Shown here one piece after another: positions 39,578-62,330 of a stretch of DNA of 64,000 nt. This stretch comes from an uncultured Ignavibacteriota bacterium (lineage in GTDB: Bacteria; Bacteroidota; Ignavibacteria; UBA10030; UBA8401). The position numbers and the translations under genes were made by a program. The notes beneath the pieces were generated by a model. It was not told the DNA's origin and did not search any database. It worked only from the letters and a program-made list of their open reading frames with translations. Where the stretch lies: assembly GCA_903884005.1 (NCBI GenBank), contig CAISDA010000002.1, forward strand, positions 62,001 through 126,000. Direction: 5' to 3'. Each line of letters opens with the position of its first letter. The stretch's first letter is position 1.

Positions 39578-40705
39578 TCATGTCGTCAGGAGTGCGGTGA
39601 TGATCGCAGCGGCCTGTTCGAGCTGGAGGATGTCGATGAATTCCCCCGTCGTATGCGCCTGCGCAATATTGCCTGGTCCGAAGACGACGCTTGGGATGCC
39701 GGCCCTGTTGTACTGGCCGGCGTCCGTGCCGTAGGGAGCGGATTCGACGACAACCCCGCCGATAATTTTCGTCACCGCATCGGACAAGAGCGTAACGATC
39801 GGCGCGTGCTCCGATACTTCCATTCCCGCCGCCGATAGATACGGCGGATCGAATTTCCAGTCCGGCATTCCACTAAGCGCATCGGCAGCGAGACGAAGCG
39901 CGTCCGCTGCCGATTCACCGGGCATCATCCGCCGGTCGATCTCAATGACGCACCCATCCGGAACAACATTCACGACCTGCCCGCCTTCGATCGTACCGAC
40001 ATTCAATGTCGGTGCTCCAAGCAGCGGGTGCGGCGCCTGAGTCTGCAGCCAGCGAGCGTGTTCTTCAAGCCGTGTAATGACGTGAGCCATTGCATAGATG
40101 GCATTGCGTCCCCGTGATGGAAAGGCGGAGTGGGCCGCAAGTCCCGCCGTGCGCAGTTTCCACCTCAGCACGCCCTTGTGAGCGCGCACGATGCGAAGCT
40201 GCGTCGGCTCTCCGACGATCGCCATATCTGCAGCGAGCCCGCGGGCAACGAGGGCTTCCGCGCCCGTGAAACCGAACTCCTCATCGGCAACCGCAGCGAG
40301 TATGATATTGTATTTTGGTTTCTTGCCGGCGGTCGTCATCGAACAGACTGCGTGCATGAATGCCGCAAGCGATCCTTTTGTGTCGCACGATCCCCGGCCG
40401 TAGAGCCTCCCCTGATCGATTGTCGCGCCAAACGGATCGATCGTCATGCCCTCAACGAACACCGTATCGAGGTGCGCTTCGAGCATGAGCGTTTCTTTCG
40501 CACCGGCGTCGATAAACCCGACGACATTCGGCCGGTTGGGCGATACATCATACTGTTCCAGATCGATGCCGCAGCGTTTCATCGTGCCGGCAACAAACGA
40601 GGCGATATCCTTTTCGCAAAAATTTCCCGAAGCCTCCACCTTCCCCATCGGATTGATGCTGGGGATCGCCACGAGTTCCTTCAGAATATCGACGCACGAT
40701 TTCAT
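39578..40705 (-). CDS. M20 family metallohydrolase (ArgE/DapE-like deacylase)
   Basis: 375 residues from the ATG at 40705 (MKSCVDILKELVAIPSINPM), which overlaps the upstream stop by ATGA; the frame extends further only as an artefact. The M20 di-zinc signature is complete: EAHLDTVFVEG (His78, Asp80), GRGSCDTKGSLAAF (Asp108) and ADEEFGFTGAE (Glu142/143), plus GTDAGQYNRAGIPSVVFGPG near the end. Family members remove acetyl, succinyl or carbamoyl groups from amino acids or open peptide-like bonds. Last gene of the catabolic cluster, just after the cyclase gene. Adjacent NSAR-type enolase (43723) makes an N-acyl amino acid a candidate substrate, which is inference. Confidence 0.85.
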   Translation of the reverse strand: MKSCVDILKELVAIPSINPMGKVEASGNFCEKDIASFVAGTMKRCGIDLEQYDVSPNRPNVVGFIDAGAKETLMLEAHLDTVFVEGMTIDPFGATIDQGRLYGRGSCDTKGSLAAFMHAVCSMTTAGKKPKYNIILAAVADEEFGFTGAEALVARGLAADMAIVGEPTQLRIVRAHKGVLRWKLRTAGLAAHSAFPSRGRNAIYAMAHVITRLEEHARWLQTQAPHPLLGAPTLNVGTIEGGQVVNVVPDGCVIEIDRRMMPGESAADALRLAADALSGMPDWKFDPPYLSAAGMEVSEHAPIVTLLSDAVTKIIGGVVVESAPYGTDAGQYNRAGIPSVVFGPGNIAQAHTTGEFIDILQLEQAAAIITALLTT

Positions 40706-41325
40706 GACACGCCCTCCACAAGGGCGAAGACACGGGCCGGAGCGCCGTCTCCGTGCTCGATCAGCAGCGGGGCGGAGATGAGCATCACGTTCCCTTCGCT
40801 CAACTTCGAAGTGTTGTTCAGATTTGTGACCAACGGAATACCCTTCTTCAAAAAAATATAATGGACATCGAGCGTGTACGGCGTATCCGCGGCAATGAGG
40901 GGAACTCCGAGCTGCACAAGGTACTCCGCCGCATCGTTGGTGAGCGGCGGATATGTTTTGTAATACTCCGCATCGCCGAAGCGGGCATCCCATCCCGTTT
41001 TCAGTATCACGGCGCTCCCGCGCGGTATCGGCAGCGACTGCAATTCGTCGGCCGTGATGCCTTTCTGCGCTTCGCGCGGCGAAAGGTCGCAGACGAATGC
41101 TTCGAGCATCCAGAGCCGCGTATCGTATTCGTCGATGCCGCGTCCGCCTTCGAGCACGTGCCGGGGCGCGTCGATGTGCGTGCCGGTATGCGTGCCGATG
41201 GTGATGGCAGTGACAATGCAACGGTGCTCTTCGTAGTTCGCCGTCTGTGTCACCTCGGTCGCCGGATGCCATGGGAAATACACGGGAATGCGCGGCGTAA
41301 TCGGATGTGTCAGGTCAATGAGCAT
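40702..41325 (-). CDS. Cyclase family metal-dependent hydrolase (kynurenine formamidase-like)
   Basis: 207 residues from the ATG at 41325 (MLIDLTHPITPRIPVYFPWH). The N-terminal extension of the frame is only translated repeat DNA (41391-41475). Family signature HTGTHIDAPRH (HxGTHxDxP) gives the metal ligands, followed by IDEYDTRLWMLEAFVCDL and RGSAVILKTGWDARF. Characterised relatives include KynB arylformamidase and isatin hydrolase, which open formyl or lactam bonds; this one is unassigned. It overlaps the M20 gene by ATGA, and the dispersed repeat separates it from the Gfo/Idh gene. Confidence 0.85.
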   Translation of the reverse strand: MLIDLTHPITPRIPVYFPWHPATEVTQTANYEEHRCIVTAITIGTHTGTHIDAPRHVLEGGRGIDEYDTRLWMLEAFVCDLSPREAQKGITADELQSLPIPRGSAVILKTGWDARFGDAEYYKTYPPLTNDAAEYLVQLGVPLIAADTPYTLDVHYIFLKKGIPLVTNLNNTSKLSEGNVMLISAPLLIEHGDGAPARVFALVEGVS

Positions 41326-41390
41326 ATGAGTATTTTTTCCTGTCGGCATTGCATGGTAACATTTCGTCTGCGGCGAACTTTTTTTCCCCC

Positions 41391-41475
41391 GGTAACTCAC
41401 TGCCGTTGCATCTGCGCACATGTAGGGCGAGCTGTCAGCTCGCCCACGCCGCGAAGCAGTGCGAGTTTCCATTAG
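41391..41475. repeat. Dispersed palindromic repeat, copy A
   Basis: Shares about 70 bp with the copy at 62244-62330: TGCCGTTGCAT, then GYGC-CATGTAGGGCGAG, a 9-bp stem hairpin (GGGCGAGCT-GTC-AGCTCGCCC, 41425-41445), then GCGAAGC-GTGC-AGTTT. Flanks match weakly further out. It lies in the 154-bp gap between the Gfo/Idh and cyclase genes, i.e. inside the catabolic cluster. No open frame. Confidence 0.85.
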
Positions 41476-41479
41476 TCAC

Positions 41480-42466
41480 TTATGAGATGTCGCTGGGCGG
41501 TCGATTTTTTACACAGCCTTGCAGAATGCTGCCGCATATCGCCTGTGCCTGGAGCCCGTCGATACCCGTCGACCACAGAGACGTGCCATGCTCGAGATGC
41601 GAAAACACATTGTCCGCGGCGCATGCGAGGGCGTTCAGGTGACCGGTTGCTATGGTTGCAACCGGGCGGAGGTCGCGGAATCCGGGATACATCGCATTGT
41701 CCCTCACCTCGTACATTTCTATCGCCAACCCGGAATCGACAATGCGCACTCTCTGCCGTTCAAACACAAGATCCATCTCGAAGATGGTGAACGCGCGGCT
41801 GTCCACCGCATGCATGAAAAATTGCGAGCCGCCGGTGAGCGTCAGCACCGCCGAGCACGACGGATCATCGTCGCGCCAATCCTGCACGGACGACACGGTC
41901 CGGACATCGTCGATCTTCCCGAGCAGAAAATGTATCAGGTCGATGAGATGCGAACCGTTATGCATCGTCCCCTTGCCGTACCAGCCGCTTCCGGACAAGC
42001 AGCGCCCGAATTCGCCCGAGGCGATCCGTGTTCTCAGGTCTTGCACTTCAGGCACGAACCGCCGCGAAAAATTCACCGCTAAAGAAATTGAACGCTCTCG
42101 ATACAACCGAACGATCTCCTCTGCTTCGTCCTCTGTGCCGGTCATCGGCTTCTCGGCAAAGACAAGCCGAAGCGGGCGATCGGACAGCGTCTTCAGCAGA
42201 CGATAATGCGTCTCATCGGGCGCCGCGATAACGGCAACATCTATCCTCTCTTCGTGAAATGCCTCGGGGATCGATGCGAATGCCTTCCCGCCCCAGATCT
42301 CGGCGGCCCTGGCCGCCCGGTCAGGGCGCGCATCCACAAAACCAACCAGCGAAAACCCCGGATGTGCCGAAAAGGCATGGGCATGAGTCTGTACAGAGGA
42401 ACTCTGCGGCAGATCAAGGAATGCGCCTATGCGGCCGGCACCTATGATGAGAACTGTGCAACTCAT
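41480..42466 (-). CDS. Gfo/Idh/MocA family NAD(P)-dependent oxidoreductase
   Basis: 328 residues from the ATG at 42466 (MSCTVLIIGAGRIGAFLD), which overlaps the ferredoxin stop (ATGA). The Rossmann nucleotide-binding motif GAGRIG is at the start, AVIAAPDETHYR follows, then FAEKPMTGTEDEAEE with the catalytic lysine region (EKP) of the family. The C-terminal domain has HNGSHLIDLIHFLLG, where the His takes part in catalysis. Substrates in the family are sugars, inositols and their acids, so it may oxidise or reduce a cyclic alcohol intermediate of the cluster. It ends 5 bp after the repeat copy A. Confidence 0.85.
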   Translation of the reverse strand: MSCTVLIIGAGRIGAFLDLPQSSSVQTHAHAFSAHPGFSLVGFVDARPDRAARAAEIWGGKAFASIPEAFHEERIDVAVIAAPDETHYRLLKTLSDRPLRLVFAEKPMTGTEDEAEEIVRLYRERSISLAVNFSRRFVPEVQDLRTRIASGEFGRCLSGSGWYGKGTMHNGSHLIDLIHFLLGKIDDVRTVSSVQDWRDDDPSCSAVLTLTGGSQFFMHAVDSRAFTIFEMDLVFERQRVRIVDSGLAIEMYEVRDNAMYPGFRDLRPVATIATGHLNALACAADNVFSHLEHGTSLWSTGIDGLQAQAICGSILQGCVKNRPPSDIS

Positions 42467-42738
42467 GGCGTTGTATCGGCGATCCACTTGATCGCATCGA
42501 CCGGACATGCCTCGAAGCAGAGGCCGCATCCGGTACAATTGTTCGCAACAACGATCGCGGTCTGTCCGAATGTATTCTTGCCGGTCTGCTCCATGACGAG
42601 CGCATCGAAGAAACACACAGGCACGCACCTGTCGCATGCGATGCACTCTTCTTGCGCAACGATGGCGATCGGCGCGTACGCGCCGCCGAGGTCGGGCGGG
42701 AATGGTGTCAATCCTTTATAGCGTTTATTTCCAGACAT
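42463..42738 (-). CDS. Two-[4Fe-4S]-cluster ferredoxin
   Basis: 91 residues. Two complete clusters: CIACDRCVPVC (CxxCxxCxxxC) and CTGCGLCFEACP (CxxCxxCxxxCP). The N-terminus overlaps the end of the dihydroorotate-dehydrogenase-like gene by 14 bp and the C-terminus overlaps the Gfo/Idh start (ATGA), so it is made along with them. In NAD-dependent dihydropyrimidine dehydrogenase (PreA) a homologous flavoprotein domain carries a two-cluster ferredoxin domain in the same chain; here the two are separate genes. It most likely carries electrons to or from the flavoprotein. Confidence 0.85.
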   Translation of the reverse strand: MSGNKRYKGLTPFPPDLGGAYAPIAIVAQEECIACDRCVPVCFFDALVMEQTGKNTFGQTAIVVANNCTGCGLCFEACPVDAIKWIADTTP

Positions 42739-43726
42739 TGCGCGCCCCCGATTTCGGTTCGCCCGGCCAGCGCTGGATCTTCTCCGGTTTGGTCATCTGC
42801 CTGAGCGCCTTGCCGCGAATGTCGTCCAGCGATTGAATCTGTTTTCGCTGCATATACGATTCAATGTCCCGGTTCATTGCCGCTACCGCATCCCAGCCGT
42901 TGACCATGACCGCAGACAGCACCTGCACCGTCGTGGCTCCCAGAAGAATATACTTTATGACGTCCTCGCCGGTCATCGTCCCGCCTGTTGCGCTGATCGG
43001 TATCGAAAGATGCTGCGCAGCTTCCGCGACGTGCATCATCGTATAATATTTTGCCCATGGTCCTCCGATCCCTCCGTAGTACCCGTGAAGGATCGGCTTT
43101 TGTTCCTCGATGTCGATATCGATGCCGCGCATGCGGTTGCATAATGTGACGGCAGACGCGCCGCACTGCTCGGAGACGATGCATTGATGGAGCAGATCCG
43201 GCGTCGATGCCAGTTTCACAAGCACGGGGATCTTCACCGATGCCACAACGGCCTGAATGCCGGCCACGAATGTCGTCTCGAATTCGAGCGACCCCGGCCG
43301 GTGGGGTGAGGAGATATCCATTTCGATGGCGTCTGCGCCGCATCGTTCAATGTTCGCCGCCAGGTACGCCCAATCTTCGGCCGAGTCTGCAAATGCGCTC
43401 CCGATGATCGGCACATGCGCATGCTTCTTCGCTTCCTCAATGAACGTCCAGTAATCCGCCAGAGTGCCGCTGTATCCCTGTTCAAACGCGAAGAGCGTGA
43501 ACTGCTTCGATCGCCCGCCGATCTGCTTGTCCCAGTCGAGCAGCTTGTACCGGGGACGGGGCCATTGGCGCATGTAGGCGAATTTGTCGGAACAGACGGT
43601 CTTCAGCACGATCGCTCCGGCGCCGTGTTCCTCCGCCGATGCGATCTGATTGACGTCATGACTCGCCGGCCCGGATGCGATCATGACCGGACTGCGAAGG
43701 CTGGCCCCGAGAAAAGATGTGGTCAT
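42725..43726 (-). CDS. Dihydroorotate-dehydrogenase-like flavoprotein (PreA-related)
   Basis: 333 residues from the ATG at 43726 (MTTSFLGASLRSPVMIASGP), overlapping the upstream stop (ATGA). TIM barrel of the DHOD/PreA family with FMN-site segments LVKLASTPDLL and ISATGGTMTGEDVIKYILLG. Members of this family use a Cys in a NxSCPH motif in PreA and class 1 DHODs; here the equivalent is DISSPH (Ser140), as class 2 enzymes use serine, so it is not simply a dihydropyrimidine dehydrogenase. Partner is the ferredoxin at 42463-42738. It probably reduces or oxidises a C=C bond of a catabolic intermediate with electrons from the ferredoxin. Confidence 0.8.
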   Translation of the reverse strand: MTTSFLGASLRSPVMIASGPASHDVNQIASAEEHGAGAIVLKTVCSDKFAYMRQWPRPRYKLLDWDKQIGGRSKQFTLFAFEQGYSGTLADYWTFIEEAKKHAHVPIIGSAFADSAEDWAYLAANIERCGADAIEMDISSPHRPGSLEFETTFVAGIQAVVASVKIPVLVKLASTPDLLHQCIVSEQCGASAVTLCNRMRGIDIDIEEQKPILHGYYGGIGGPWAKYYTMMHVAEAAQHLSIPISATGGTMTGEDVIKYILLGATTVQVLSAVMVNGWDAVAAMNRDIESYMQRKQIQSLDDIRGKALRQMTKPEKIQRWPGEPKSGARNVWK

Positions 43727-44832
43727 AGGCATGGGAACACCATTTCCTGCACTTTGAATGGTTGCATCGCGGCGGCATCGACCAGGTGGCAATTGCCAAG
43801 CCCTTCAGCGATCTCGATCATGCCGCTGCGCACTTCGATCAACGGCCGTATGATGTCGCCGGTGAACCACCGCTGTGACGATTCCACATCCGTCGGGTAG
43901 AGAAAATTAGGCAGCATCGCCAGATGCGCGGTTTGTATGCCGCCGATCCCGAGTTCAGGCATCGTTCCTGCCCACACGGGAATCCCCGCGTCGGCGCAGA
44001 GGTCGTGCATCGCCTTCGCATGCTGCAATCCGCCGACGCGCTGAATCTTGATGTTCACGATCTTACAGCTCTTCATTCTGATCGCCTCACGCACGGTCGC
44101 ACAATTGTTCGCGCTCTCGTCGAGACAAATGGGCGTGGCCATCGCGGCTTGCAGCGCAGCATGCCCTTCGAGATCGTCTTTGTGCAGCGGCTGTTCGATC
44201 ATCATCATACCGAACTCGTCGAGGCGTTTCAAGTGACCAATGTCGTTGCGCGAATACGCGCAGTTTGCATCGACCATCAACGGAATGTCTCCGAACACAC
44301 GCCGCACGTGCGTCAGCGGCTCAACGTCCCACCCCGGCTGAATCTTGATCTTCAGGCGTTTGTACCCTTCCACCATGAAGCGTTCGATGGCTGCAAGCAG
44401 ATCAGGAATCGCAGGATAGATGCCCACGGCGAGCCCCGACTCAACCGGGCGGCGCACTGCGCCGAGCTCGGCATACAGGGGACGGCCGTTCTTCTGCGAT
44501 TCTATATCCCACAGTGCCGTCTCGATTCCCGCGCTCGCAAACGGGCTCCGGCTGCGCGCGTCGAGCATATGGTTTGCCGAATCGATCGATACATCGCCCA
44601 TGCCAAGGAGCGCCGGCACGAGTTCAGCAACAAGCATTGCCCACACGGACTCCGGCGTGTCGTCCGAGTAGAAGCCGCCCGACATCGGCGAAGCCTCGCC
44701 GTATCCGGTCAGTCCGCCGGAGGTCACACCGATGATGATGCCGTCCTTCTCGCTCACCGAGCCGTTGCTGATCCGGAACGGCTCCACCAGCGGCACTCGA
44801 ACATGCGTCAATGTAATTCGTTCAATGGTCAT
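43723..44832 (-). CDS. Enolase-superfamily MR/MLE enzyme (OSBS/NSAR-like)
   Basis: 369 residues. The barrel shows the muconate-lactonising subgroup: KIKIQPG (Lys161/163, the K-x-K pair), VDANCAY (Asp188), IEQPL (Glu213), CLDES (Asp238) and NIKIQRVGG (Lys262). The capping domain begins with RVPLVEPFRISNGSVSEKDG and contains GYGEASPMSGGFY. This residue set is that of o-succinylbenzoate synthase/N-succinylamino acid racemase and dipeptide epimerases, all of which take a proton alpha to a carboxylate. It is followed after 10 bp gap by nothing but the overlap to the flavoprotein; the M20 enzyme of the same cluster would suit an N-acyl amino acid substrate. Menaquinone synthesis is unlikely in this context. 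Confidence 0.85.
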   Translation of the reverse strand: MTIERITLTHVRVPLVEPFRISNGSVSEKDGIIIGVTSGGLTGYGEASPMSGGFYSDDTPESVWAMLVAELVPALLGMGDVSIDSANHMLDARSRSPFASAGIETALWDIESQKNGRPLYAELGAVRRPVESGLAVGIYPAIPDLLAAIERFMVEGYKRLKIKIQPGWDVEPLTHVRRVFGDIPLMVDANCAYSRNDIGHLKRLDEFGMMMIEQPLHKDDLEGHAALQAAMATPICLDESANNCATVREAIRMKSCKIVNIKIQRVGGLQHAKAMHDLCADAGIPVWAGTMPELGIGGIQTAHLAMLPNFLYPTDVESSQRWFTGDIIRPLIEVRSGMIEIAEGLGNCHLVDAAAMQPFKVQEMVFPCL

Positions 44833-44839
44833 TGGATGA

Positions 44840-45736
44840 TTATTTTCTGCGGACCGGATTTTTCAATTCGCCGATGCGCTCGATCCTGCACGACACAATG
44901 TCGCCGTCCTTGATTTCCTGGATTCCATGCGGCGTCCCTGTCGATATGACATCGCAGGGCTCCAGCACGATGTCCTTCGAGATGAATTCGATGAGCGTCG
45001 GTATGTCGAACACGAGATGCTCCGTATTCGATTTCTGTCTGCTCTTGCCGTTGACCTTGCATTCAATGCCGAGGCGCACCGGCGCCGGTATTTCATCGCT
45101 CGTCACGATCCACGGCCCGAGCGGTGTAAATGTATCGAAACTCTTCGAACGGAACCACGGGTGATTCTTCTCGAGATCCTTCGTCTGCAGTTCGCGCGCG
45201 GTGACGTCGTTGATGATCGAATAGCCGGCGATGTATTTATGCGCGTCCTTCTTTTTAATGTTCGATGCCCTCCGCCCGATGACGACGGCAAGTTCCACTT
45301 CATGATCTATCCTCCCCTTGTCGCGCGGAAGAAGAATGGCTTCGCCGGGACCGATGACGGATGAGCCCGCCTTCATGAAGAGGATCGGTTCCGTGGGCAC
45401 ATCGAAGTTGCCTTCCTTTGCGTGCAGCCTGTAGTTCAGTCCGAGCGCGACGATCTTCGGCGGACAGCCGATCGGCGCCTTCATCACTGCAGATGCCGGC
45501 ACGGCAAGGTGCTTGAGCAAGGTATGATCCTTCGCAAACGCGACAACGGCGGAGATTTCCTCCGCGTCGAATCGCTGAGCATTGATCAATTGGCTGATAG
45601 TACAAAAACGCATTGCCGGCTTTTTGGTGACAAGCCATTGATAGGCAATGAGAGCATCCGTATAGTTGATCCATTTCCCCGCGCAGTCTACGCCGATCAT
45701 GGATGTTCCTGAAACAACAAATTGTGCGATTTTCAT
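44840..45736 (-). CDS. Fumarylacetoacetate hydrolase (FAH) family protein
   Basis: 298 residues. The FAH fold is plain: KIVALGLNYRLHAKEGN, EPILFMKAGSSVIGPGEA, the metal-ligand segment IDHEVELAVVIGRRA, GYSIINDVTARELQ, KSFDTFTPLGPWIV and a STGTPHGIQEIKDGD end. Family members hydrolyse C-C bonds of acylpyruvates, hydrate 2-oxo-alkenoates or decarboxylate oxaloacetate, so the reaction is not fixed. It starts 7 bp upstream of the enolase gene's start codon and is probably the first gene of its sub-operon; the gap upstream (45737-45959) contains a short inverted repeat GATGTA-TACATC. Confidence 0.85.
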   Translation of the reverse strand: MKIAQFVVSGTSMIGVDCAGKWINYTDALIAYQWLVTKKPAMRFCTISQLINAQRFDAEEISAVVAFAKDHTLLKHLAVPASAVMKAPIGCPPKIVALGLNYRLHAKEGNFDVPTEPILFMKAGSSVIGPGEAILLPRDKGRIDHEVELAVVIGRRASNIKKKDAHKYIAGYSIINDVTARELQTKDLEKNHPWFRSKSFDTFTPLGPWIVTSDEIPAPVRLGIECKVNGKSRQKSNTEHLVFDIPTLIEFISKDIVLEPCDVISTGTPHGIQEIKDGDIVSCRIERIGELKNPVRRK

Positions 45737-45795
45737 TGGTGCCTGCTCCCGTCATTGTTGAGTGTCGATACCGCGTCCGCCAGAATGATTGACAA

Positions 45796-45817
45796 CGATG
45801 TACGTAAAATTACATCA
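45796..45817. promoter_or_regulatory. Short inverted repeat upstream of the FAH-family gene
   Basis: GATGTA (45797-45802) and TACATC (45811-45816) form 6-bp inverted arms around CGTAAAAT in the 223-bp gap between the symporter and the FAH-family gene, 60-80 bp upstream of the latter. An operator is possible but short arms like these occur by chance. Confidence 0.25.
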
Positions 45818-45959
45818 CGTTTCCTGGACGGAAGCCTTGAGCGTTATATATTTTTTTTGCAACTACTCACCGCCCTCTCTCGTCCATGTCCGAAGGAGCT
45901 CGAGCGGCTGAAGAAACCAGGCGCACAGTGTTTGCCGATTGACGCAGCTCCCGAATTGT

Positions 45960-47726
45960 TCATGAGGGTTTGGATTTTTTCCGGCTGTACTGCAGCAGCA
46001 CCGCGCCGATCGCGAGCAAGACGGCTCCCGCTACGACGTTGATCGATGCCGGGGCGATTGCCGTACCCGGAACCGCGATGCACAGCACAAGAACGACTCC
46101 CAGCACACAACACACCTGCCCTAGAAGCTGAAACACTTTAAATGCCGCCGGATCAAATTTCACATCGGTTTCGATCACGGGTATCCTCAAATCCGCATCG
46201 AGTCTGGCGAGTTCCTCATGCCGCGGGTCTTCAGCGCGGAACCAGTATGCGGAGCCGAAAAAAACGACCGAAGAGACGATCGATTCAGACAACATATTAC
46301 GAACAAACGCGTATTCTTTCCAGACCCCCAAGGTCATCAATGTTATCGCGACGATGATCGCGGCGGAGCACGACGCGATGCCGGACCACCACGGCGTTTT
46401 CCTGTACATCATACCCAGCGCCACGGGCATCGAGAACGCAGCCACAAGGGAATAATACTCGAGCGCAAAATTAAACGCTCCTCCAAACCGCGGTATGTAC
46501 CATGCGACCGTCACTCCCATCACGCCCACAACGAGCATGGTGATCCTGGCAACATTCATTTGCTTCTTTTCCGACGGCCCCGTTCCGGCATACCGCTTGT
46601 ACACGGGCACATAAATATCGCGTGTTGTGGTGATGGCAAGCCAGTTGAACGTGTCGTTCGCATGCCCCAGCGTGGCCGAAAGGATCGCTGAAATGACAAA
46701 GCCGATCATCCCATGCGGCAACAGCAGCAGCGCAAGACTGACGAACGACGCCTCGGCCGGCACCGCAAACGACGGCCACAGAAGAGTGATATTCGGAAAA
46801 ATGATGCGCGACGCCATCACGGGAAGTATCCACAGCAGCGGTCCGATGAGGCACAACACGGCGCAGAGGAGCGCCATTTTTTGCGCGCCCTTTTCATCCG
46901 GCACACTATGATACCGCTGTATCTGTCCCCAGGCGACATTATATCCGAGCATCGCAGACATCAGATAACAGAAGAGGAAGAGCGGACTCGCCACCTGACC
47001 TGCGAATGCAAAGTATCCTTTCGGCGCATCATTCCAGAGACGCACTGCGCCGGCCAGGAACCCGCCGCCCTGTCCCAGATACATAAAGGACACCGGAAAG
47101 ATGATGACTGTCATCACAATGATGATGACGGATTGAACGGCATCGGACAACACAGCCGCCCAGATGCCGCCGATCACCGTGTAGAGGATCATCACCGCAC
47201 CGACGATGAGGATCGAGAGCTGAAATCCGGTCACTTCAAAACCGTTCCATGAAAATATCTGTCCGCTGAAACCGAGCGCGGTCGAGACGAAGATGCAGAG
47301 AATGTACAGTCCCTGCCCGATCCCCACCGTTTGCGGAATGATCGCGGTGACGGAATAGAAGTATGTCGTCGATGGAGAGAACCGCCGTGTGAGGAATTGC
47401 AAGGGCGAATTGATCCGCGCGCGTCGCCATCGTTTGGCAAAATAAAAATAGCCGACAACGTACGCCCAAAATGCGGACGTGAAGATAGGCACCGCAGTGA
47501 TCCCGTTCACATACGTGAACCCGGCGGCGGCCACAAACATGAATGCCGAAAATCCGGAGATCCAATTTGAAAATCCGGCGAGCACCCAGGGAATTCTTCC
47601 GCCCCCTTTGAAAAATTCATCGGTGTTTTTATTTTTCCTCGCCGAAAATATTCCGACCCAGATGATAATAATAAAATAGAATGCAATCAGTATATAGTCG
47701 ATGGCGTTCGCCGTGTTGAATATCAT
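45960..47726 (-). CDS. Sodium:solute symporter (SSS family)
   Basis: 588 residues with about 13 transmembrane helices from the N-terminal YILIAFYFIIIIWVGIFSA onward. The family pattern of the first loop, KNKNTDEFFKGGGRIPWVLAG, and the helix FSNWISGFSAFMFV that follows are as in SSS transporters (PF00474), which move sugars, amino acids, carboxylates or nucleosides with sodium. The cytoplasmic C-terminal tail of about 100 residues holds two more hydrophobic stretches. As the only transporter of the cluster it most likely imports its substrate. It begins 118 bp after the amidohydrolase gene's stop. Confidence 0.9.
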   Translation of the reverse strand: MIFNTANAIDYILIAFYFIIIIWVGIFSARKNKNTDEFFKGGGRIPWVLAGFSNWISGFSAFMFVAAAGFTYVNGITAVPIFTSAFWAYVVGYFYFAKRWRRARINSPLQFLTRRFSPSTTYFYSVTAIIPQTVGIGQGLYILCIFVSTALGFSGQIFSWNGFEVTGFQLSILIVGAVMILYTVIGGIWAAVLSDAVQSVIIIVMTVIIFPVSFMYLGQGGGFLAGAVRLWNDAPKGYFAFAGQVASPLFLFCYLMSAMLGYNVAWGQIQRYHSVPDEKGAQKMALLCAVLCLIGPLLWILPVMASRIIFPNITLLWPSFAVPAEASFVSLALLLLPHGMIGFVISAILSATLGHANDTFNWLAITTTRDIYVPVYKRYAGTGPSEKKQMNVARITMLVVGVMGVTVAWYIPRFGGAFNFALEYYSLVAAFSMPVALGMMYRKTPWWSGIASCSAAIIVAITLMTLGVWKEYAFVRNMLSESIVSSVVFFGSAYWFRAEDPRHEELARLDADLRIPVIETDVKFDPAAFKVFQLLGQVCCVLGVVLVLCIAVPGTAIAPASINVVAGAVLLAIGAVLLQYSRKKSKPS

Positions 47727-47844
47727 CTGTTCACTATCCGATCGTCGTATGTGATGGGCAGCTGTTTCATGCTATGGTGTTCCTGCTCCTCGCTGCATGC
47801 TTTCGCTCCGTCGTTGCCGCGGCAGCCGATGCGCAGTATCGAGT

Positions 47845-49470
47845 CTAGAGTTTTCTCACGCGTCGTATGATCTTCTGCATGTTCAGTCCGAGGATCTTCG
47901 TTTTCTCCTCTGCAGTGCAGTGTGAATACGTCACCCATCCGAACTGCGGGATCGGATCGCGCATCGGCTGATCCGTTCCGAAGAGCACCCGATCGGCCCC
48001 GACCTGCTTCACCATGAATTCGATGATCTTGAACGTGACGGAGGTCAATGTGATCTCGAGTGCGATGTTGGGATGTTTGAGCGCAGCCTCGATCGCGACG
48101 CGCGCGTCGCGATACGATCCGCCACAGTGCGCAAGGATGAACATGATGTTCGGATATCGCGCCGCCAGATCGTCGATCTCCACTGCAAAGTTCGGCGAGG
48201 GATGCATCAGCGCGAACGCGTTCATGCGGTTGCCGTATTCGTACCACGGATCCCAGAGCTTATCGTTATAGGCAAGGCCCGTCATCGGATTATAGGGCTT
48301 GATGCCCTTGAAGCCGTATCCTTCATAGATTTTTTTGAGTTCCCGCTGCCAATCCTTCACATACTGCGGCTGCAGTGTCGCGTAGCCGCAATAGAATTTT
48401 GGAAATTGTGTGATCGCATCGTGCACGATCTCATTGCCTTCCTCATAATCGGCCCAGAGGCCGAGCCAGGAACTGATGCAGACCTTGCTGATCCCCATGG
48501 TCTTTGCGCGTTCCTTCATGCCCGCCGCATCGGAATGCGGCTGGTACATGAAGCCGACGCCGTTGCCGCCATTATGCGAGATGTGCGCATGCGCATCGAT
48601 CACGAGCACATCGCGCAACGGCTTGCCTTCCTTCGACAATTCAAGGATCGGATCGCGCAATGCCCGCTTCTTGTACGCGCGTGGAAGCGCCGGCAGTTTC
48701 AGCAGGCGCGCGAGATTGCCGCCGGCGATCAACGCTTTGTCCTCGTCCGCGATCACGGAATAGTCGACAAGCGATTTCGCCGCACCAGGCGATTTGCTCA
48801 GGGCTCCGGTGCCGAAGAGAAGGCGCTCCGGACCGAAGCGGCCGACGAAATCCTCCAGGATCCGATTGCCCTGATGGGCCGAAAATTCAATATGCAGACC
48901 CGGGTGTTTGGACATCAGCGTGATGAGGTACCGCGTGGCATCCCATCGGGATCCCTGCAGCAGCACATTGAGCCGCGGATGGAGCGTCAGCATCCGATCG
49001 AGGTCCGTCAACAGCACCTGGTTGAACGGTTCGGTGATGTCCGGCGCGTACATGTTTCCGCCTTCGAGCAGTAACGGGATCTCGCATTCCTCGAGCTCTT
49101 TCAGGAGCGCCCCGCATGTGTATTCGTCGAAGAAGTAGTGCTGTATGCGCGGAGACATTCTGGCCGCGCAAATGCCGTGTGCCCGCATCTCTCCGACGAT
49201 CACATTCGGTTCGGGCATCTCCCCTGTCATGTGAGGCATCACAGACCAGACGCCGAACAAGCGCGGGCTTTTTTTCAGTTCCCGGAGAAGCATCTGGTTG
49301 CCATAGGCAGGGTCGTATTCTTTTCCCGCGGCATGCGAGATGAGCGCGCCGTGTATGCCGCACCACTCCATTTCGTCCAGGAGCGCTTCTGTCGTATACT
49401 CGTTCTCAACATCCTTCCGGCCGTATTTGCCGACCATGGCATAACTGTCAATATAGATGCGGGAATTCAT
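47845..49470 (-). CDS. Tandem amidohydrolase: N-terminal half without metal ligands, C-terminal half intact
   Basis: 541 residues from the ATG at 49470 (AAAGGAT at 6 bp). Two amidohydrolase_2-type barrels follow one another. The second (about 285-541) has a full set of metal ligands: IDAHAH (His294, His296), FALMHP, FILAHCGG and LFGTDQPMRD. The first (1-265) aligns well but its ligands are gone: DSYAM for DAHAH, VLLQGSRW for ILAHCGG, and LFGTGALSKS for LFGTDQPMRD. The C-terminal half should hydrolyse an amide, ester or lactone, or decarboxylate an acid; the first is probably structural or regulatory. Follows the aminotransferase gene by 52 bp. Confidence 0.85.
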   Translation of the reverse strand: MNSRIYIDSYAMVGKYGRKDVENEYTTEALLDEMEWCGIHGALISHAAGKEYDPAYGNQMLLRELKKSPRLFGVWSVMPHMTGEMPEPNVIVGEMRAHGICAARMSPRIQHYFFDEYTCGALLKELEECEIPLLLEGGNMYAPDITEPFNQVLLTDLDRMLTLHPRLNVLLQGSRWDATRYLITLMSKHPGLHIEFSAHQGNRILEDFVGRFGPERLLFGTGALSKSPGAAKSLVDYSVIADEDKALIAGGNLARLLKLPALPRAYKKRALRDPILELSKEGKPLRDVLVIDAHAHISHNGGNGVGFMYQPHSDAAGMKERAKTMGISKVCISSWLGLWADYEEGNEIVHDAITQFPKFYCGYATLQPQYVKDWQRELKKIYEGYGFKGIKPYNPMTGLAYNDKLWDPWYEYGNRMNAFALMHPSPNFAVEIDDLAARYPNIMFILAHCGGSYRDARVAIEAALKHPNIALEITLTSVTFKIIEFMVKQVGADRVLFGTDQPMRDPIPQFGWVTYSHCTAEEKTKILGLNMQKIIRRVRKL

Positions 49471-49522
49471 GGGTGATCCTTTGTATGTCGTGTAAAATAA
49501 ATTAGTGCGCTGCAGCGATTCG

Positions 49523-50770
49523 TCAATGATAGAACGGCACCGTTGTCGACCGTTCGTTCGGCTCGCACTCGAGCGCCCGATGCAGGGCTCTTCGCGCTTT
49601 TTCCGCCGCCTCGTGAATATCCGATTCCTTGTGCGAGTAACAGATGAACCATCGGAGATTTGCAAAGATCCCTTCGCGGTACAATTCCCGCTGCCACAGA
49701 TACGCGAGCCGTTCATTGAACTGGATGTCGGGCGTCGTGAATTTCAGCCACGAAGCCACAGGCAGTCCCATTGCCTTACCTTCCACGCCGATCTCTTTCG
49801 CCATCGCATCGAAATGCTCCATGAGCAGCGTTCCCATCGCCCACAGATGCTCGTGCACCTTCTCGCGTTTCATGATTTTCATTGTCGCGATCGCGGCCGC
49901 TATGGAGAGCGTCTCGCCGGCATAGGTGGTCGTCATTTTGAACCGGTCGAGCGTCTGCATATATTCACGCTTGCCGACATACGTCGAGAGTGGATACCCG
50001 TTGGCAATCGCCTTCGCATAGCTCGCAAGGTCCGCGTCCACGCCGAAAAATTCCTGCGCTCCACCTAGCGCAAGCCTGAATCCGGTCAGCACCTCATCCA
50101 TCACCAGCAGGATGCCGTGTTCGCGCGTAAGCGTACGCAGATAGCGGATATACGATCCGCTCGTGTCTTCGTTGAAATCGTACGGAATGGAAATGATGCA
50201 GGCGATCCGTTCTCCGTATCGGCGCACCAGGCGTTCAGCTTCTTCACAATCGCCCCACGGGATCACTTTCACATACTCTTTCATGAACTCAGGCACGCCG
50301 TTGTTCGGACTGTCTTCAGTTGCGAACCAGTCCGGATAGCCGTGGTAGCCGCTCATCAGTATCATATCGCGCTTGGTGTACGCCCGCGCGATACGGACAT
50401 TGCTCAGGTTCGCATCCTCTCCCGTCTTCATGAACCGGCACATCTCCGCGTTCGGCACTGTGGAGCGGATCATCTCCGCCAGTTCAAGCTCGCGCGGACT
50501 CGCCATGCTGAAGAGCACGCCTTTCTGCATCTGTTCGCGCACGGCGTCATCGACCTCGTCATAGCAATAGCCGAGCGTCACGGGACCGAGGGAGAGACGA
50601 AAGTCGATGTATTCTTTCCCGTCCATATCCCAGAGCCTGCACCCTTTGCCGCGCTCGATGAACTTCGGCATCGTCTCGTTGAAGAACGGGATCGGCCGCT
50701 TCGCATTTGTTTGCGTCCCCCACGGTATGAGCGAGAGGGCCCGGTCAAAATACTGGTCTGAGAGTTTCAT
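49523..50770 (-). CDS. Class III aminotransferase, glutamate-1-semialdehyde aminomutase-like
   Basis: 415 residues from the ATG at 50770; the frame runs further upstream into the lyase gene but that part is not real. Fold type I PLP enzyme: KFIERGKGCRLWDMDGKEYID at the start (a stretch typical of GSA aminotransferases), LMSGYHGYPDW, LLVMDEVLTGFR (Asp225 of the cofactor site) and YAKAIANGYP with the PLP lysine (Lys253). This family includes GSAM (haem synthesis), but several catabolic and sugar-acid aminotransferases share it; the catabolic neighbours argue against a haem role. It starts 28 bp past the lyase stop. Confidence 0.8.
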   Translation of the reverse strand: MKLSDQYFDRALSLIPWGTQTNAKRPIPFFNETMPKFIERGKGCRLWDMDGKEYIDFRLSLGPVTLGYCYDEVDDAVREQMQKGVLFSMASPRELELAEMIRSTVPNAEMCRFMKTGEDANLSNVRIARAYTKRDMILMSGYHGYPDWFATEDSPNNGVPEFMKEYVKVIPWGDCEEAERLVRRYGERIACIISIPYDFNEDTSGSYIRYLRTLTREHGILLVMDEVLTGFRLALGGAQEFFGVDADLASYAKAIANGYPLSTYVGKREYMQTLDRFKMTTTYAGETLSIAAAIATMKIMKREKVHEHLWAMGTLLMEHFDAMAKEIGVEGKAMGLPVASWLKFTTPDIQFNERLAYLWQRELYREGIFANLRWFICYSHKESDIHEAAEKARRALHRALECEPNERSTTVPFYH

Positions 50771-50798
50771 GATAGTCGTAAATAAAGTAATGGGTGCA

Positions 50799-52811
50799 TT
50801 ATGCCACTGTAAATATCGGAATGTCCCCGGCGGTTTCGATGGAGACATTAATCTCCTTCGCATTGTGTTTCCCTTCAACTCTCCATACCGTTCCTTCGCG
50901 GCGTGCAGAGATCCGTCCGTGCAATGGCTCTCCCTTCTGCGCGGTGCAGACCGTGAGAATGTCGTGCGCCGTCGCAGATGACGATTCCAATTCCGCATAC
51001 GGATAGATCCCGAGGTCTTCGGCAAGAGCAAGCGTTCCGGCCCTCACCACACAGTCGTGCGATGAAAAAACTCTGCCGTTCAAACTCACACCGGGACGGT
51101 CGATGTAAAATTCATTCCCCTCGGTTCTCACCTTTCCGTTCTTGTCGTCGTTGAACACCTGGAATCTCGCCTGCACGGCGGCCTTCCCCGCACTCATCTC
51201 AACCGTATCGAGAACGAGAAACACGTCGGGTTTAAGGAACAGCACGGAGCGAAAAACTTTTTTAACGTCCGGGATCACCAGCTGATACGCGTCTGTGGCA
51301 TCGCTCGACAAGGTAACGCGTCCAGGAGATGCGTTGTATGCCAGGATGCGTGCGAATGCCCACGACGCATTGGTCCCCTCTTTTCCGTCATGATACTGAT
51401 GCCCCTTGCCGTCGATGAGCAGTGCGGTATGGGCCTCCGTTGTTCGCAGCAGCCAGCGCGGCTGCGTGTGTGAATAGGCGGCGTTGAACGGGTCATGGAG
51501 CAGCCGCTGCCCGTGGGCGGCGAAGATGATGCTGTTCCTGTCCGCATGTTCATGATTGGCGGGCGGCCCGCTCCTGAACGCAAGCACTGAACTGTCTTTG
51601 TCCCATCCGCTGCGCGAGACAATAATGCCGGTGCCGAACCTCACATCGAGAAGATCATTGCCCGGCTGCTTTGGTTTGACCGCAGCATCGAACCACACCA
51701 GGCCGGAATAATGTTTCGGCTCGCTGACGTTCAAGGCGACGTATTGTGCGATCGGATCGCGAAGTTTTTTTGCGGCCCATGCGGCCACCGAAATATCCCC
51801 AATGCCGTGCGCATCGCTGAAATTCACGGCATCGGCGGGTTCATGATCGGTCGGCATTGTCATTTGCAGCGCATAGCGAACGCCGCCGGGATAATTGATC
51901 AGACTCCGCTCATCGATTCCGGTTTTCCGATAGAGCACTTCGAGAAAAAGTGTCAGATAGAGTGCGGTGTATCCCCAATAGCCGACGCCTTCGTCATAGC
52001 TCCCGTCGGTATGGAACATCGGCGCGAAACTCTTCGCGCTCTGCAGCGCCATGTCCAGCCACTGCTCCGCCAGCGGGTGTCTGCCCCGCAGGTGACACGC
52101 GGCAATGCCGAGTCCGGCAATGGGGATCACCTTGAGATTCGTCGAATTCAGAATCAGCGGCCAACGGCTGAGGTCGAAGCGGAACGTATAGTCCGATTCG
52201 GGGTCGATCCCCCATCCGCGCACACGGTCGGGATATTTCAATCCGTAGAGCGTCAGGTAGCATGCGGGTGCTCCCTTCTCTCCGATCTGGCGTTCGATCT
52301 CGGCAAGCATCGCCGGCTCGATCGAATCTTTAAGCCAGTCGCAGGCAAACGACATCGCAACGCTCATCTCCGATGCGCGCTGGAGCCCGATCGTCTGCTT
52401 TCCGCCTTCCTGAAAATAATCCCACTTCTTGTATTCCAGCAGCTTTGTGATCGCCAATTTTGCGACCTCCAGCTGCAAGGGATCACCGGCCACAGCATAC
52501 GCGAACGATGTCCGTTCCAGGATCATTCGCGCATTATTTAGATGCAGCACATGATTGTTCAAGCGGAGGTCTTCGGTCAGGAATTTTTTGTCCGCCTGTA
52601 AGTCTGCTTCGGAAAAAGTTTTCCACAGCGGTGAAAAACGCGGATGCGCCAGCGTGCGCTTGATGCGCGGAACGTCGGCCGCATCGAACAAGAGCGAGTG
52701 CGAACCGGTGTGTGTTCCGGCGGCCGCGGCGGGACTATCGATGAGGGATAATAAGGGAAGAGAGAGTGCGGAAACCGCTCCCGCCTGCAGGAATTTTCTG
52801 CGCGTGATCAT
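50799..52811 (-). CDS. Tat-exported heparinase II/III-family lyase
   Basis: 670 residues. Twin-arginine signal (MITRRKFLQAGAVSALSLPL) for export of the folded protein; the N-terminal about 330 residues form an (alpha/alpha) toroid (YAVAGDPLQLEVAKLAITKL) and the C-terminal beta-sandwich carries the family hallmark NHEHADRNSIIFAAHGQRLL, then RTTEAHTALLIDGKGHQYHDG. These lyases cleave uronate-containing polysaccharides (heparin, alginate, others) to unsaturated oligosaccharides. First gene of the catabolic cluster; a TATAAT (complement of 52904-52909) lies about 90 bp upstream and AAAGGA near the ATG. The start codon is at the beginning of a divergent gap with DUF2723. Confidence 0.8.
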   Translation of the reverse strand: MITRRKFLQAGAVSALSLPLLSLIDSPAAAAGTHTGSHSLLFDAADVPRIKRTLAHPRFSPLWKTFSEADLQADKKFLTEDLRLNNHVLHLNNARMILERTSFAYAVAGDPLQLEVAKLAITKLLEYKKWDYFQEGGKQTIGLQRASEMSVAMSFACDWLKDSIEPAMLAEIERQIGEKGAPACYLTLYGLKYPDRVRGWGIDPESDYTFRFDLSRWPLILNSTNLKVIPIAGLGIAACHLRGRHPLAEQWLDMALQSAKSFAPMFHTDGSYDEGVGYWGYTALYLTLFLEVLYRKTGIDERSLINYPGGVRYALQMTMPTDHEPADAVNFSDAHGIGDISVAAWAAKKLRDPIAQYVALNVSEPKHYSGLVWFDAAVKPKQPGNDLLDVRFGTGIIVSRSGWDKDSSVLAFRSGPPANHEHADRNSIIFAAHGQRLLHDPFNAAYSHTQPRWLLRTTEAHTALLIDGKGHQYHDGKEGTNASWAFARILAYNASPGRVTLSSDATDAYQLVIPDVKKVFRSVLFLKPDVFLVLDTVEMSAGKAAVQARFQVFNDDKNGKVRTEGNEFYIDRPGVSLNGRVFSSHDCVVRAGTLALAEDLGIYPYAELESSSATAHDILTVCTAQKGEPLHGRISARREGTVWRVEGKHNAKEINVSIETAGDIPIFTVA

Positions 52812-62243: not shown

Positions 62244-62330
62244 AGTGACACGCTGCCGTTGCATTGGTGCGCATGTAGGGCGAGATGTTATCTCGCCCGC
62301 TCGAGCGAAGCGGTGCAAGTTTTTGTGAGT
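62244..62330. repeat. Dispersed palindromic repeat, copy B
   Basis: Matches copy A (41391-41475) over about 70 bp: GCTGCCGTTGCAT, GTGCGCATGTAGGGCGAG, the 9-bp hairpin GGGCGAGAT-GTT-ATCTCGCCC (62278-62298), then GAGCGAAGCGGTGCAAGTTT. It lies between the etf-operon terminator and the 3' end of the methyltransferase gene. The central stem is the same as that of the terminator at 14583-14603. Confidence 0.85.

Follow-up and report, generated by a model that had tools for sequence, protein, structure and literature searches.

The eleven genes at 39578-52811 of the window, the 64-kb stretch of DNA analysed here, are read, tentatively and at a little under an even chance, as a conserved catabolic module that continues where glycan depolymerization ends. 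On the best reading of the data, a uronate released by a lyase, probably one bearing an amide or amino group, would be catabolized by the encoded enzymes.

Layout of the cluster

All eleven open reading frames were confirmed on the minus strand (Table 1), as the preliminary description had stated, and the families named there were borne out by profile matches, whereas its account of the junctions held only in part. With the starts chosen here, 4-bp ATGA overlaps are found at two junctions (FD/GFO and CYC/M20) rather than five, and longer overlaps at two others (ENOL/PREA, 10 bp; PREA/FD, 14 bp). The six remaining junctions are gaps of 28, 52, 118, 223, 7 and 154 bp, three of them exceeding 100 bp, and 'mostly without gaps' was thus a generous wording. 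The 154-bp gap, between GFO and CYC, holds a single copy of a palindromic repeat that occurs at 146 sites in the genome (control, 0); in the same-genus genome G001 this gap is about 27 bp, as measured from the ORF ends, and no copy of the repeat was found at two G001 loci. Where SSS and FAH are separated here by the 223-bp gap, a carbon-nitrogen hydrolase gene is located in G001, and its protein gave no tblastn match in the 64-kb window. No regulator is encoded among the eleven genes, as had been noted, and the IclR regulator of the relatives' cluster has a homologue (55%) on contig C35 of the same genome.

Table 1. Features of the eleven-gene cluster, in window coordinates.
Feature	Positions	Strand	Length (aa)	Assignment
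HEP	50799..52811	-	670	exported heparinase II/III-fold polysaccharide lyase (PL15/PL35-like), Tat-like signal motif; PF07940, 58 bits
AT3	49523..50770	-	415	class III aminotransferase, nearest glutamate-1-semialdehyde aminomutase type; PF00202, 150 bits
AMIDOH	47845..49470	-	541	tandem amidohydrolase_2 (PF04909)
SSS	45960..47726	-	588	sodium/solute symporter; PF00474, 96 bits
FAH	44840..45736	-	298	fumarylacetoacetate-hydrolase family; PF01557, 238 bits
ENOL	43723..44832	-	369	enolase superfamily, NSAR/OSBS type
PREA	42725..43732	-	335	dihydroorotate-dehydrogenase-superfamily flavoprotein; PF01180, 108 bits
FD	42463..42738	-	91	2[4Fe-4S] ferredoxin; Fer4 families
GFO	41480..42466	-	328	Gfo/Idh/MocA oxidoreductase; PF01408, 63 bits
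palindromic repeat	41425..41445	.		REP-like
CYC	40702..41325	-	207	cyclase-family metal hydrolase; PF04199, 108 bits
M20	39578..40705	-	375	ArgE/DapE-type M20 deacylase; PF01546

Conservation and the wider glycan cluster

Co-occurrence was surveyed in 98 genomes of the order, among which AMIDOH is present in 27, M20 in 26 (25 of them shared with AMIDOH), ENOL in 21, CYC in 18 and PREA in 17. All 17 PREA-positive genomes are AMIDOH-positive (Fisher P = 1.8e-12) and M20 is present in 25 of the 27 AMIDOH-positive genomes (Fisher P = 6.5e-20), both P values being optimistic because the genomes share descent. In a scan of the collection, AT3 lies directly upstream of AMIDOH at 21 of the 24 readable loci of the order, and also in one KSB1-labelled genome, while AT3-AMIDOH and PREA-FD are located on one contig in eight genomes from three families. 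This co-occurrence, together with a gene order kept at about 60-70% identity, points to joint conservation beyond chance. At the thresholds used, AMIDOH, ENOL, PREA, CYC and M20 have one match each in the genome of the window itself. The genomes of the order that carry the module are metagenome-assembled, and their isolate names suggest fen, groundwater and sediment as sources.

Exceptions are found within the order: in three genomes of one genus (G088, G089 and G090; loci L141, L122 and L134) the 12-22 kb around AMIDOH contain no match to AT3, HEP or M20, and the cluster including M20 is present on other contigs. FAH is absent from the stretches read of G002, G088, G090 and G092. Outside the order linkage is rare. 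At nine loci of distant AMIDOH relatives, mostly from other phyla and two of them shorter than 8 kb, AT3 was found at two, HEP at two, and M20, FAH, ENOL and PREA at none; an Opitutales MAG has HEP, AT3 and AMIDOH together with SSS. Distant parallel loci in two genomes combine a split pair of dead and live amidohydrolases with SSS, IclR, a class III aminotransferase and M20, and the one that was Pfam-scanned also contains a KDPG aldolase and a PfkB kinase. Of the refuting outcomes named in the preliminary description, that of genes not conserved together is opposed by the data from the order, where the set is conserved, and less so by those from outside it.

In relatives, the module genes are carried inside a 25-40-kb glycan cluster, with the HEP-AT3-AMIDOH-SSS half and the FAH-to-M20 half 10-20 kb apart. 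In the genome of the window, other parts of this cluster are located on contigs C35 (from IclR to Gfo16 to propellers) and C24 (propeller-GH38-ROK-c26), both lacking the genes found in the window, which suggests that the window holds a detachable module. Neither the wider cluster nor the complementary loci had been seen in the preliminary description. The cluster resembles Bacteroidota polysaccharide utilization loci in that a regulator is clustered with genes for lyases, glycosidases, sugar kinases and aldolases, but differs from them in encoding aminotransferases, deacylases and corrinoid methyltransferases and, in some members, an SSS symporter; no Pfam match to SusC/SusD was found among the cluster proteins scanned, which are a subset of all cluster proteins.

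Predicted enzymes and competing readings

Modelling gives HEP the fold of a PL15/PL35-type lyase over its full length, while its match to the Pfam family PF07940 is low at 58 bits. Its AF2 model (pLDDT 88) matches the PL15 exo-oligoalginate lyase Atu3025 (3afl) over 603 residues (Z 30.2, rmsd 3.9) and the PL35-type GAGase VII with Z 28.8, and R4, R5, F7 and the HxHxD residues H420, H422 and D424 are invariant in all 18 aligned sequences. Although the fold and the conserved HxHxD are common to Atu3025, the PL35-type GAGases and HEP, the latter has a Tat-like signal motif, is 17-21% identical to PL15/PL35 structures and adjoins AMIDOH rather than an alginate or GAG pathway. Wherever HEP was read beside AMIDOH, AT3 is also there in all but one locus (L136). 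At five of the 20 loci where the position is visible (L115, L117, L127, L132, which is G002, and L139), AT3 is not immediately preceded by HEP, and the lyase is thus not indispensable.

The best NCBIfam models for AT3, glutamate-1-semialdehyde aminomutase and GntE, both stay below cut-off, the aminomutase equivalog scores being 235.6 against 527.3 (TIGR00713) and 295.4 against 486; the motif YAKxxANG, the lysine of which is presumably the PLP lysine, is present in 15 of 15 sequences. The description of AMIDOH as a double amidohydrolase stands in so far as each half resembles an amidohydrolase/ACMSD-type barrel (Z 20-25), but the N-terminal half is degenerate, without the HxH motif, and only the C-terminal domain is intact (H294, H296, H423, H448 and D500 invariant in 18 of 18). 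SSS scores 113 bits against TIGR00813, under the cut-off of that model.

The same families might serve an ordinary, non-phosphorylating catabolism of uronates or sugar acids (a lactonase, an enolase-superfamily dehydratase and an FAH hydrolase), the nitrogen-linked families having been co-opted for non-nitrogen chemistry, and we regard this as rather unlikely. Amidohydrolase_2, enolase-superfamily and FAH proteins co-occur in L-rhamnose/L-fucose-type pathways, as they do here; the nearest NCBIfam models of FAH are HpaG C-term and then 2,4-didehydro-3-deoxy-L-rhamnonate hydrolase; KdgR is the third-best model, below cut-off, for the relatives' IclR; AMIDOH occurs without AT3 in G088-G090 and at most loci outside the order; and in G049 ENOL is surrounded by genes for sugar kinase and aldolase, without M20 or AMIDOH, which argues for a sugar-acid role. 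However, both FAH models remain below cut-off, the hydrolase by far (203 against 500 bits), the subfamilies differ from those of the known acid pathways, and ENOL is nearest to NSAR/OSBS (TIGR01928, 260.8 bits, cut-off 200.65), with the sugar-acid dehydratase models below cut-off. Moreover, the aminotransferase AT3 and the deacylase M20 accompany AMIDOH within the order, which is hard to explain without nitrogen.

A salvage of N-acyl amino acids, in which ENOL would racemize N-acyl (N-succinyl) amino acids, M20 would deacylate them and the other enzymes would serve the amino acid or the acyl part, appears distinctly unlikely. The NSAR/desuccinylase pathway consists of an N-succinylamino acid racemase and an N-acyl amino acid deacylase, and an N-succinyltransferase is expected with them. 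Aligned with the Amycolatopsis NSAR/OSBS, ENOL keeps the catalytic Lys pair, the metal ligands and the NIKxxR Arg, which we take to be the functional residues of NSAR/OSBS (of 13 rows, all have NIKxxR and 12 have the first catalytic Lys). M20 likewise passes the ArgE/DapE cut-off (TIGR01910, 266.3 bits against 217.6), with the motifs HxDT, GxCDTK, DEE and GEPT in 15 of 15 rows and a C-terminal His motif in the rows displayed, and ENOL directly adjoins M20 in G058, G088 and G090. Nevertheless, the two part in both directions: M20 is present in 19 of the 21 ENOL-positive genomes and an ENOL orthologue in 19 of the 26 M20-positive genomes, some misses falling at contig gaps. M20 occurs without an ENOL orthologue in G025, G092, G093, G094 and G097 (and in the contig-gap cases G001 and G082), and ENOL without M20 in G049, in the sugar context described above, and in G072 (a contig-end case). 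The context is that of a glycan, and no N-acyltransferase or N-succinyltransferase was found among the eleven genes. The N-acyl-amino-acid step suggested earlier thus retains an NSAR-like enolase, whereas an obligatory NSAR-M20 pair is weakened. A role of ENOL as MenC was rejected: the genome has no menD over cut-off (its two matches reach 72.5 and 65.1 bits, the cut-off being 244.2), so that ENOL does not serve the classical menaquinone route.

That HEP-AT3-AMIDOH-SSS and FAH-to-M20 are two unrelated, abutting operons is improbable. The 223-bp gap, the separation of the halves in relatives and the location of AMIDOH away from the M20 cluster in G088-G090 are in keeping with it, but PREA is confined to AMIDOH-positive genomes, M20 is present in nearly all of these, the halves share a contig in eight genomes, and both lie apart from the remaining glycan cluster in their own genome.

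PREA, FD and CYC come and go as a block across genomes, with exceptions only at contig ends, and constitute an accessory block that was overlooked earlier. Four genomes (G025, G093, G094 and G097) have none of the three, FAH being the next cluster gene before M20, and since these four and G092 lack orthologues of PREA, CYC and ENOL alike, these genes are not essential to the core. In all 15 PREA orthologues DISSPH takes the NxSCPN position, with two changes (Ser for Cys, Asp for Asn) against the aligned NISCPN of dihydroorotate dehydrogenase B; the C=C reduction proposed earlier is a candidate reaction of PREA-FD. The four-Cys motifs of FD are kept in the variants displayed, which account for 13 of 15 rows (first motif) and 15 of 15 (second), and CYC has HxGTHxD in 13 of 14 rows and HxATHxD in one. 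As in PreTA and dihydroorotate dehydrogenase B, a DHOD-superfamily flavoprotein stands beside a dicluster ferredoxin, but the motif is changed, the ferredoxin gene is separate, PreT is missing and the partner is a cyclase-family hydrolase. A reductive pyrimidine-like or tryptophan-like breakdown, to which this DHOD/DPD-superfamily pairing and the sole NCBIfam match of CYC (arylformamidase) might point, is extremely unlikely: PREA scores 139.9 bits against the PreA equivalog cut-off of 335 and lacks NxSC(P)(N/H), taken here as the PreA-type active-site motif, neither PreT nor dihydropyrimidinase was found among the eleven genes scanned, and CYC reaches 67.1 bits against the KynB cut-off of 223.05; PreTA-type pyrimidine catabolism and the kynurenine pathway were rejected on these grounds. 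GFO occupies its position in this genus only (also in G001) and is missing from that position in the other maps.

Proposed route for a lyase-released uronate

In the preferred reading, the catabolism of a lyase-released uronate, HEP, probably exported by Tat, would cut a uronate-containing polysaccharide or oligosaccharide via beta-elimination, and SSS would take up the product. Inside the cell, M20 may strip an N-acyl or amide substituent, AT3 may deaminate the resulting amino-aldehyde or amino-keto acid or shift its amino group, and AMIDOH, through its active C-terminal domain, may hydrolyse or decarboxylate the product of AT3, after which FAH would cleave the 2,4-diketo or 2-keto-3-deoxy acid so formed, yielding pyruvate and a small fragment. 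Among the accessory enzymes, ENOL could enolize, racemize or dehydrate one intermediate, and PREA with FD could perform a flavin/ferredoxin redox step, the product of which CYC would then hydrolyse; this order is drawn by analogy with pyrimidine breakdown ('reduce ring, then hydrolyse'), but here the hydrolase belongs to another family and the active site of the flavoenzyme is changed. GFO would be a genus-specific addition. The reactions named for AT3, FAH and CYC are guesses from distant relatives, because all of the NCBIfam scores shown for them are below cut-off. The data themselves concern gene content, co-occurrence and conservation, the nesting in the glycan cluster, and predicted folds and active-site residues; the amino- or amide-bearing uronate, the sequence of steps and all of the reactions are inferred from these.

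A more specific version, which we consider unlikely, is a dedicated route for uronates that bear an amide, either N-acylated aminouronates or uronates joined to amino acids through an amide bond, released from the surface glycans of bacteria or archaea. It would include the Ser/Asp-type flavoenzyme-ferredoxin-cyclase trio, acting on a non-pyrimidine ring in the manner of DPD and dihydropyrimidinase, and, from the wider cluster, the cobalamin methyltransferase, capturing methanol from methylated sugars. Of the interpretation first put forward, one conserved set with its symporter and no recognized pathway still stands, none having matched in the tests or the literature searched, and the uronate side is upheld by the full-length lyase model and the glycan cluster of the relatives; the obligatory N-acyl pair is what has lost ground.

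If the proposed route is true, an acidic glycan component that had no described pathway in the literature searched would gain, in these Ignavibacteria-related bacteria, a set of enzymes for its breakdown and a clear order in which to test them. PREA-FD-CYC would then be a defined three-gene unit that joins ferredoxin-linked flavin chemistry to a hydrolase in a setting other than pyrimidine metabolism, and the natural split in this genome between genes that 'depolymerise' and genes that 'catabolise' makes the boundary of the pathway testable.

Gene layout and the encoded enzymes

The cluster consists of eleven minus-strand ORFs, transcribed in the order HEP (heparinase II/III-fold lyase), AT3 (class III aminotransferase), AMIDOH (tandem amidohydrolase), SSS (symporter), FAH (fumarylacetoacetate-hydrolase family), ENOL (NSAR/OSBS-type enolase superfamily), PREA (DHOD-superfamily flavoprotein), FD (2[4Fe-4S] ferredoxin), GFO (Gfo/Idh/MocA family), CYC (cyclase-family hydrolase) and M20 (deacylase), and the family names given to them in the preliminary description are borne out by family matches. 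Overlaps of 4 bp occur only at FD/GFO and CYC/M20, ENOL/PREA and PREA/FD overlap by 10 and 14 bp, respectively, and the six remaining junctions are gaps of 28, 52, 118, 223, 7 and 154 bp. Both flanking genes lie on the opposite strand; among the mapped loci, the AMP-binding gene is shared only with G001, a genome of the same genus, and the TMEM260-like gene with none. In G001, SSS and FAH are separated by a carbon–nitrogen hydrolase gene, and G026 likewise carries one beside SSS; the window has no such gene, and no remnant of it was found in the SSS/FAH gap.

The GFO/CYC gap holds one copy of the palindromic repeat GGGCGAG-N7-CTCGCCC, of which the window has three copies (chance expectation 0.02) and the source genome as a whole 146 sites, against none for the reversed control pattern; it is a REP-like family, and the two G001 loci checked hold no copy. 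Scanning the window with Rfam (gathering threshold) and for tRNAs gave no match. A regulatory motif common to the region upstream of HEP and the intergenic regions of contig C35 of the same genome was rejected, the best 18-mer matching at 14 of 18 positions compared with 13 to 15 in 15 shuffles.

Coordinates of the cluster and of related features
Feature	Sequence	Position	Strand
Eleven-gene cluster	window	39578-52811	-
Flanking AMP-binding gene	window	37555	+
Flanking TMEM260-like gene	window	53163	+
Palindromic repeat, copy 1	window	14583-14603	
Palindromic repeat, copy in GFO/CYC gap	window	41425-41445	
Palindromic repeat, copy 3	window	62278-62298	
Exported 760-aa protein	window	194-2476	-
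MtaB-type methyltransferase gene	window	62447-64000	-
Carbon–nitrogen hydrolase gene (G001)	L016	429-1331	-
Distant parallel cluster	L025	8407-18623	
Distant parallel cluster	L026	8610-18540	
c11	L103	11394-13673	
c26	L103	17909-19996	
c13	L017	11304-13694	
Opitutales locus	L143	2708-18520	

HEP scores 58 bits against Hepar_II_III_C, and its AlphaFold2 model (18 sequences, pLDDT 88) matches the PL15 lyase Atu3025 over 603 residues (Z 30.2), followed by GAGase VII (28.8), dermatan sulfate epimerase (28.6) and heparinase II (26.9); a Tat-like motif (R4, R5, F7) and H420, H422 and D424 are invariant in 18/18 sequences. Each half of AMIDOH resembles the barrels of amidohydrolases, ACMSD-type decarboxylases and lactonases; in the C-terminal domain H294, H296, H423, H448 and D500 are retained in 18/18 sequences, and the N-terminal domain is without the HxH motif. 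In two distant parallel clusters, L025 and L026, a degenerate and a live amidohydrolase are encoded as two genes, the degenerate one first, adjoining SSS, IclR, class III aminotransferase and M20 genes. L025, the one scanned against Pfam, has additional genes for KDPG aldolase, PfkB kinase and 2-hydroxyacid dehydrogenase; here the same set of partners recurs independently, in a 2-keto-3-deoxy-acid context.

ENOL exceeds the NSAR/OSBS-type cut-off with all catalytic residues aligned in the window protein; among the orthologues NIKxxR is kept in 13/13 rows and the first catalytic Lys in 12/13. In the DHOD-like PREA, DISSPH, invariant in 15/15, occupies the position of the N-x-S-C-P motif of dihydroorotate and dihydropyrimidine dehydrogenases, a motif with an active-site Cys. 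In the alignment rows inspected, CYC, M20 and FD retain their metal motifs, apart from one variant of CYC.

Occurrence and linkage within the order

Full-length AMIDOH was found in 10 of 60 relatives, the source genome included, the nine others being 60–88% identical. A search of 98 genomes from the order finds AMIDOH in 27, M20 in 26 (E ≤ 1e-70), PREA in 17 (E ≤ 1e-40), CYC in 18 and ENOL in 21 (at least 57% identity, counting one 152-residue fragment in G043), and in the source genome each of the five has a single match at the thresholds used. All 17 PREA-positive genomes are AMIDOH-positive (Fisher P 1.8e-12), and AMIDOH and M20 occur together in 25 genomes, with AMIDOH alone in G047 and G072 and M20 alone in G092 (Fisher P 6.5e-20); both P values are optimistic as the genomes share descent, and G072 is scored PREA-negative with a contig end falling within its PREA match. 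In a sample of the phylum, a PREA-type protein (E ≤ 1e-60) was found in 3 of 395 genomes, all three of the same order. A profile search of a public genome collection with AMIDOH returned 38 loci, mostly in metagenome-assembled genomes labelled Bacteroidota or Ignavibacteria, with others in KSB1, Latescibacterota, Rhodothermaceae, Zipacnadia (two), Opitutales and 'BMS3Bbin03', and weaker matches in Akkermansiaceae, a planctomycete and an uncultured bacterium.

In the first maps, made from fetched loci (15 of the 27 AMIDOH-positive and 15 of the 17 PREA-positive genomes, with G088, G089 and G090 left out), AT3 lay immediately upstream of AMIDOH in 15/15 loci, preceded by HEP in 14 (not in G002). 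The scan of all 38 loci, which overlap those 15, corrected this figure: of 24 loci from the order that could be read upstream, 21 have AT3 immediately before AMIDOH, or 22 of 25 with the KSB1-labelled L139, a further four loci from the order (L133, L140, L144, L150) beginning inside AMIDOH. The exceptions, all from one genus (L122 in G089, L134 in G090, L141 in G088), carry AMIDOH at about 64% identity without AT3, HEP or M20 in the 12–22 kb read. These three genomes have M20 clusters, on contigs other than that of AMIDOH. Of the 20 loci in which the gene before AT3 could be read (L114 and L126 begin inside AT3), 15 have HEP there; it lies 8 kb downstream in L127 and was not seen in the stretches of L115, L117, L132 and L139. 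In nine other loci the AMIDOH relative is more distant (L135–L138, L142, L143, L147–L149; two under 8 kb); of these, two have AT3 (opposite strand in L137, adjacent in L143), two have HEP (L136, L143) and none has M20, FAH, ENOL or PREA. Tight linkage is therefore a property of this order. A partial echo outside it is seen in the Opitutales locus, where SSS, AT3 and AMIDOH are surrounded by three HEP homologues; a 1173-aa protein encoded there resembles, by eye, an outer-membrane receptor.

FD follows PREA in all 15 mapped PREA loci, an extra called ORF between them in G086 being treated as spurious; the in-house ORF caller may miss or mis-start genes and omitted CYC and GFO in the window itself. 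Apparent breaks within PREA-FD-CYC occur only at contig ends (G043, where the contig stops just past FD, G055 and G072). ENOL adjoins M20 with PREA-FD-CYC absent in G058, G088 and G090; in G025, G093, G094 and G097, FAH is the next cluster gene before M20, and an ENOL orthologue, PREA, FD and CYC are absent, as they are from the stretch read in G092. More distant ENOL paralogues (36% identity) occur in G025 and G093, and FAH is absent from the stretches read in G002, G088, G090 and G092. Within the order, AT3, AMIDOH and M20 therefore form the core, FAH is common, ENOL is optional and PREA-FD-CYC is one optional unit.

The wider glycan cluster and its probable split in the source genome

AT3-AMIDOH and PREA-FD lie on one contig in eight genomes of three families (G000, G002, G050, G055, G078, G084, G085 and G087), and in all of these except the window both pairs fall inside one 25–40-kb cluster. 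Its pooled membership, of which some genomes lack some members, comprises by Pfam and NCBIfam AP_endonuc_2, a weakly GH15-like protein (c27), an OYE-family protein, DUF4432, two Gfo/Idh proteins, beta-propellers, PfkB kinases, a GH38-type protein (nearest model mannosylglycerate hydrolase, below cut-off), DeoC/LacD aldolases, GH3, a ROK kinase, a DUF455 protein, URO-D, a corrinoid protein, MtaB (methanol:cobalamin methyltransferase), glycerate kinase, LarA and an IclR regulator whose nearest named models are PcaR/PcaU, BhcR and KdgR, each scoring below its cut-off. The exported 760-aa protein, encoded at the far end of the window from the eleven genes, is 39% identical to c27.

Three large conserved proteins of this cluster, c26, c11 and c13, have no family above the Pfam cut-off and are candidate new glycan-active enzymes. 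Outside the order c26 lies beside HEP (L136) or AT3 (L137); c11 is heparinase-N-like (E 0.0064) and c13 weakly matches GH76, pectic-lyase, GH88 and C5-epimerase families, all below cut-off. By sequence, no relative of solved structure was found for c26, and one weak heparinase III match (E 0.017) for c11.

MtaB in the glycan cluster of several relatives hints at methanol release from the substrate. The window's own MtaB-type gene, the only copy in its genome and about 10 kb from the cluster, was rejected as part of the module, being 43% identical to the cluster MtaB with unrelated genes intervening.

The source genome carries homologues of the cluster IclR (55%) and c26 (64%) on contigs C35 and C24. 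C35 reads SSS, SSS, IclR, AP_endonuc, c27, OYE, Gfo16, propellers and the contig end, with HEP, AT3 and AMIDOH absent from their usual position after Gfo16; C24 reads propeller fragment, GH38, ROK and c26, with the FAH-to-M20 genes absent from theirs between GH38 and ROK. Nine of the window's eleven genes thus complement the part remaining on these contigs; of the other two, GFO is specific to the genus and relatives of SSS occur in G001 and G026. The C35 and C24 stretches showed no PfkB10, c13, c11, aldolases or PfkB15. The window may thus represent the natural separation of one functional module from its glycan cluster.

Proposed pathway and competing explanations

In the proposed scheme, HEP would cleave a polymer outside the cell and SSS would import the product, M20 would take off an amide or acyl group ahead of transamination by AT3, AMIDOH would hydrolyse or decarboxylate the product and FAH would cleave it to give pyruvate, with ENOL and PREA-FD-CYC perhaps acting on a variant of the substrate. 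A uronate is suggested by the lyase fold, the heparinase-N-like c11, the weak matches of c13 and the KDPG-aldolase parallel, and nitrogen in the substrate by the association of AT3 and M20 with AMIDOH within the order. Several observations count against the scheme. AMIDOH is separated from AT3 in G088–G090 and in the majority of loci from other orders, G049 has ENOL but no M20, and AT3-AMIDOH stands without HEP in G002 and elsewhere; AT3, FAH and CYC also score weakly against their families.

An N-acyl-amino-acid pathway, with an NSAR and a desuccinylase, is weakened as a reading and keeps a low probability. That two unrelated operons merely abut here is improbable; it gains from the separation of AMIDOH and AT3 in G088–G090, because of which its small probability was raised slightly and that of a module catabolising a lyase-released uronate, probably amide- or amino-bearing, was lowered from an even chance to slightly below that. 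Pyrimidine, tryptophan and menaquinone readings each fail their defining tests; for ENOL as MenC of classical menaquinone synthesis, the best menD match in the genome reaches 72.5 bits against a cut-off of 244.2.

No described pathway with this gene set was recognised in searches confined to open-access papers. No SusC/SusD turned up among the proteins scanned, so the cluster may not be a PUL in the narrow sense. We rate it as a module for glycan catabolism with a core route so far undescribed, and the Opitutales locus is a candidate as a good place for seeking the substrate.
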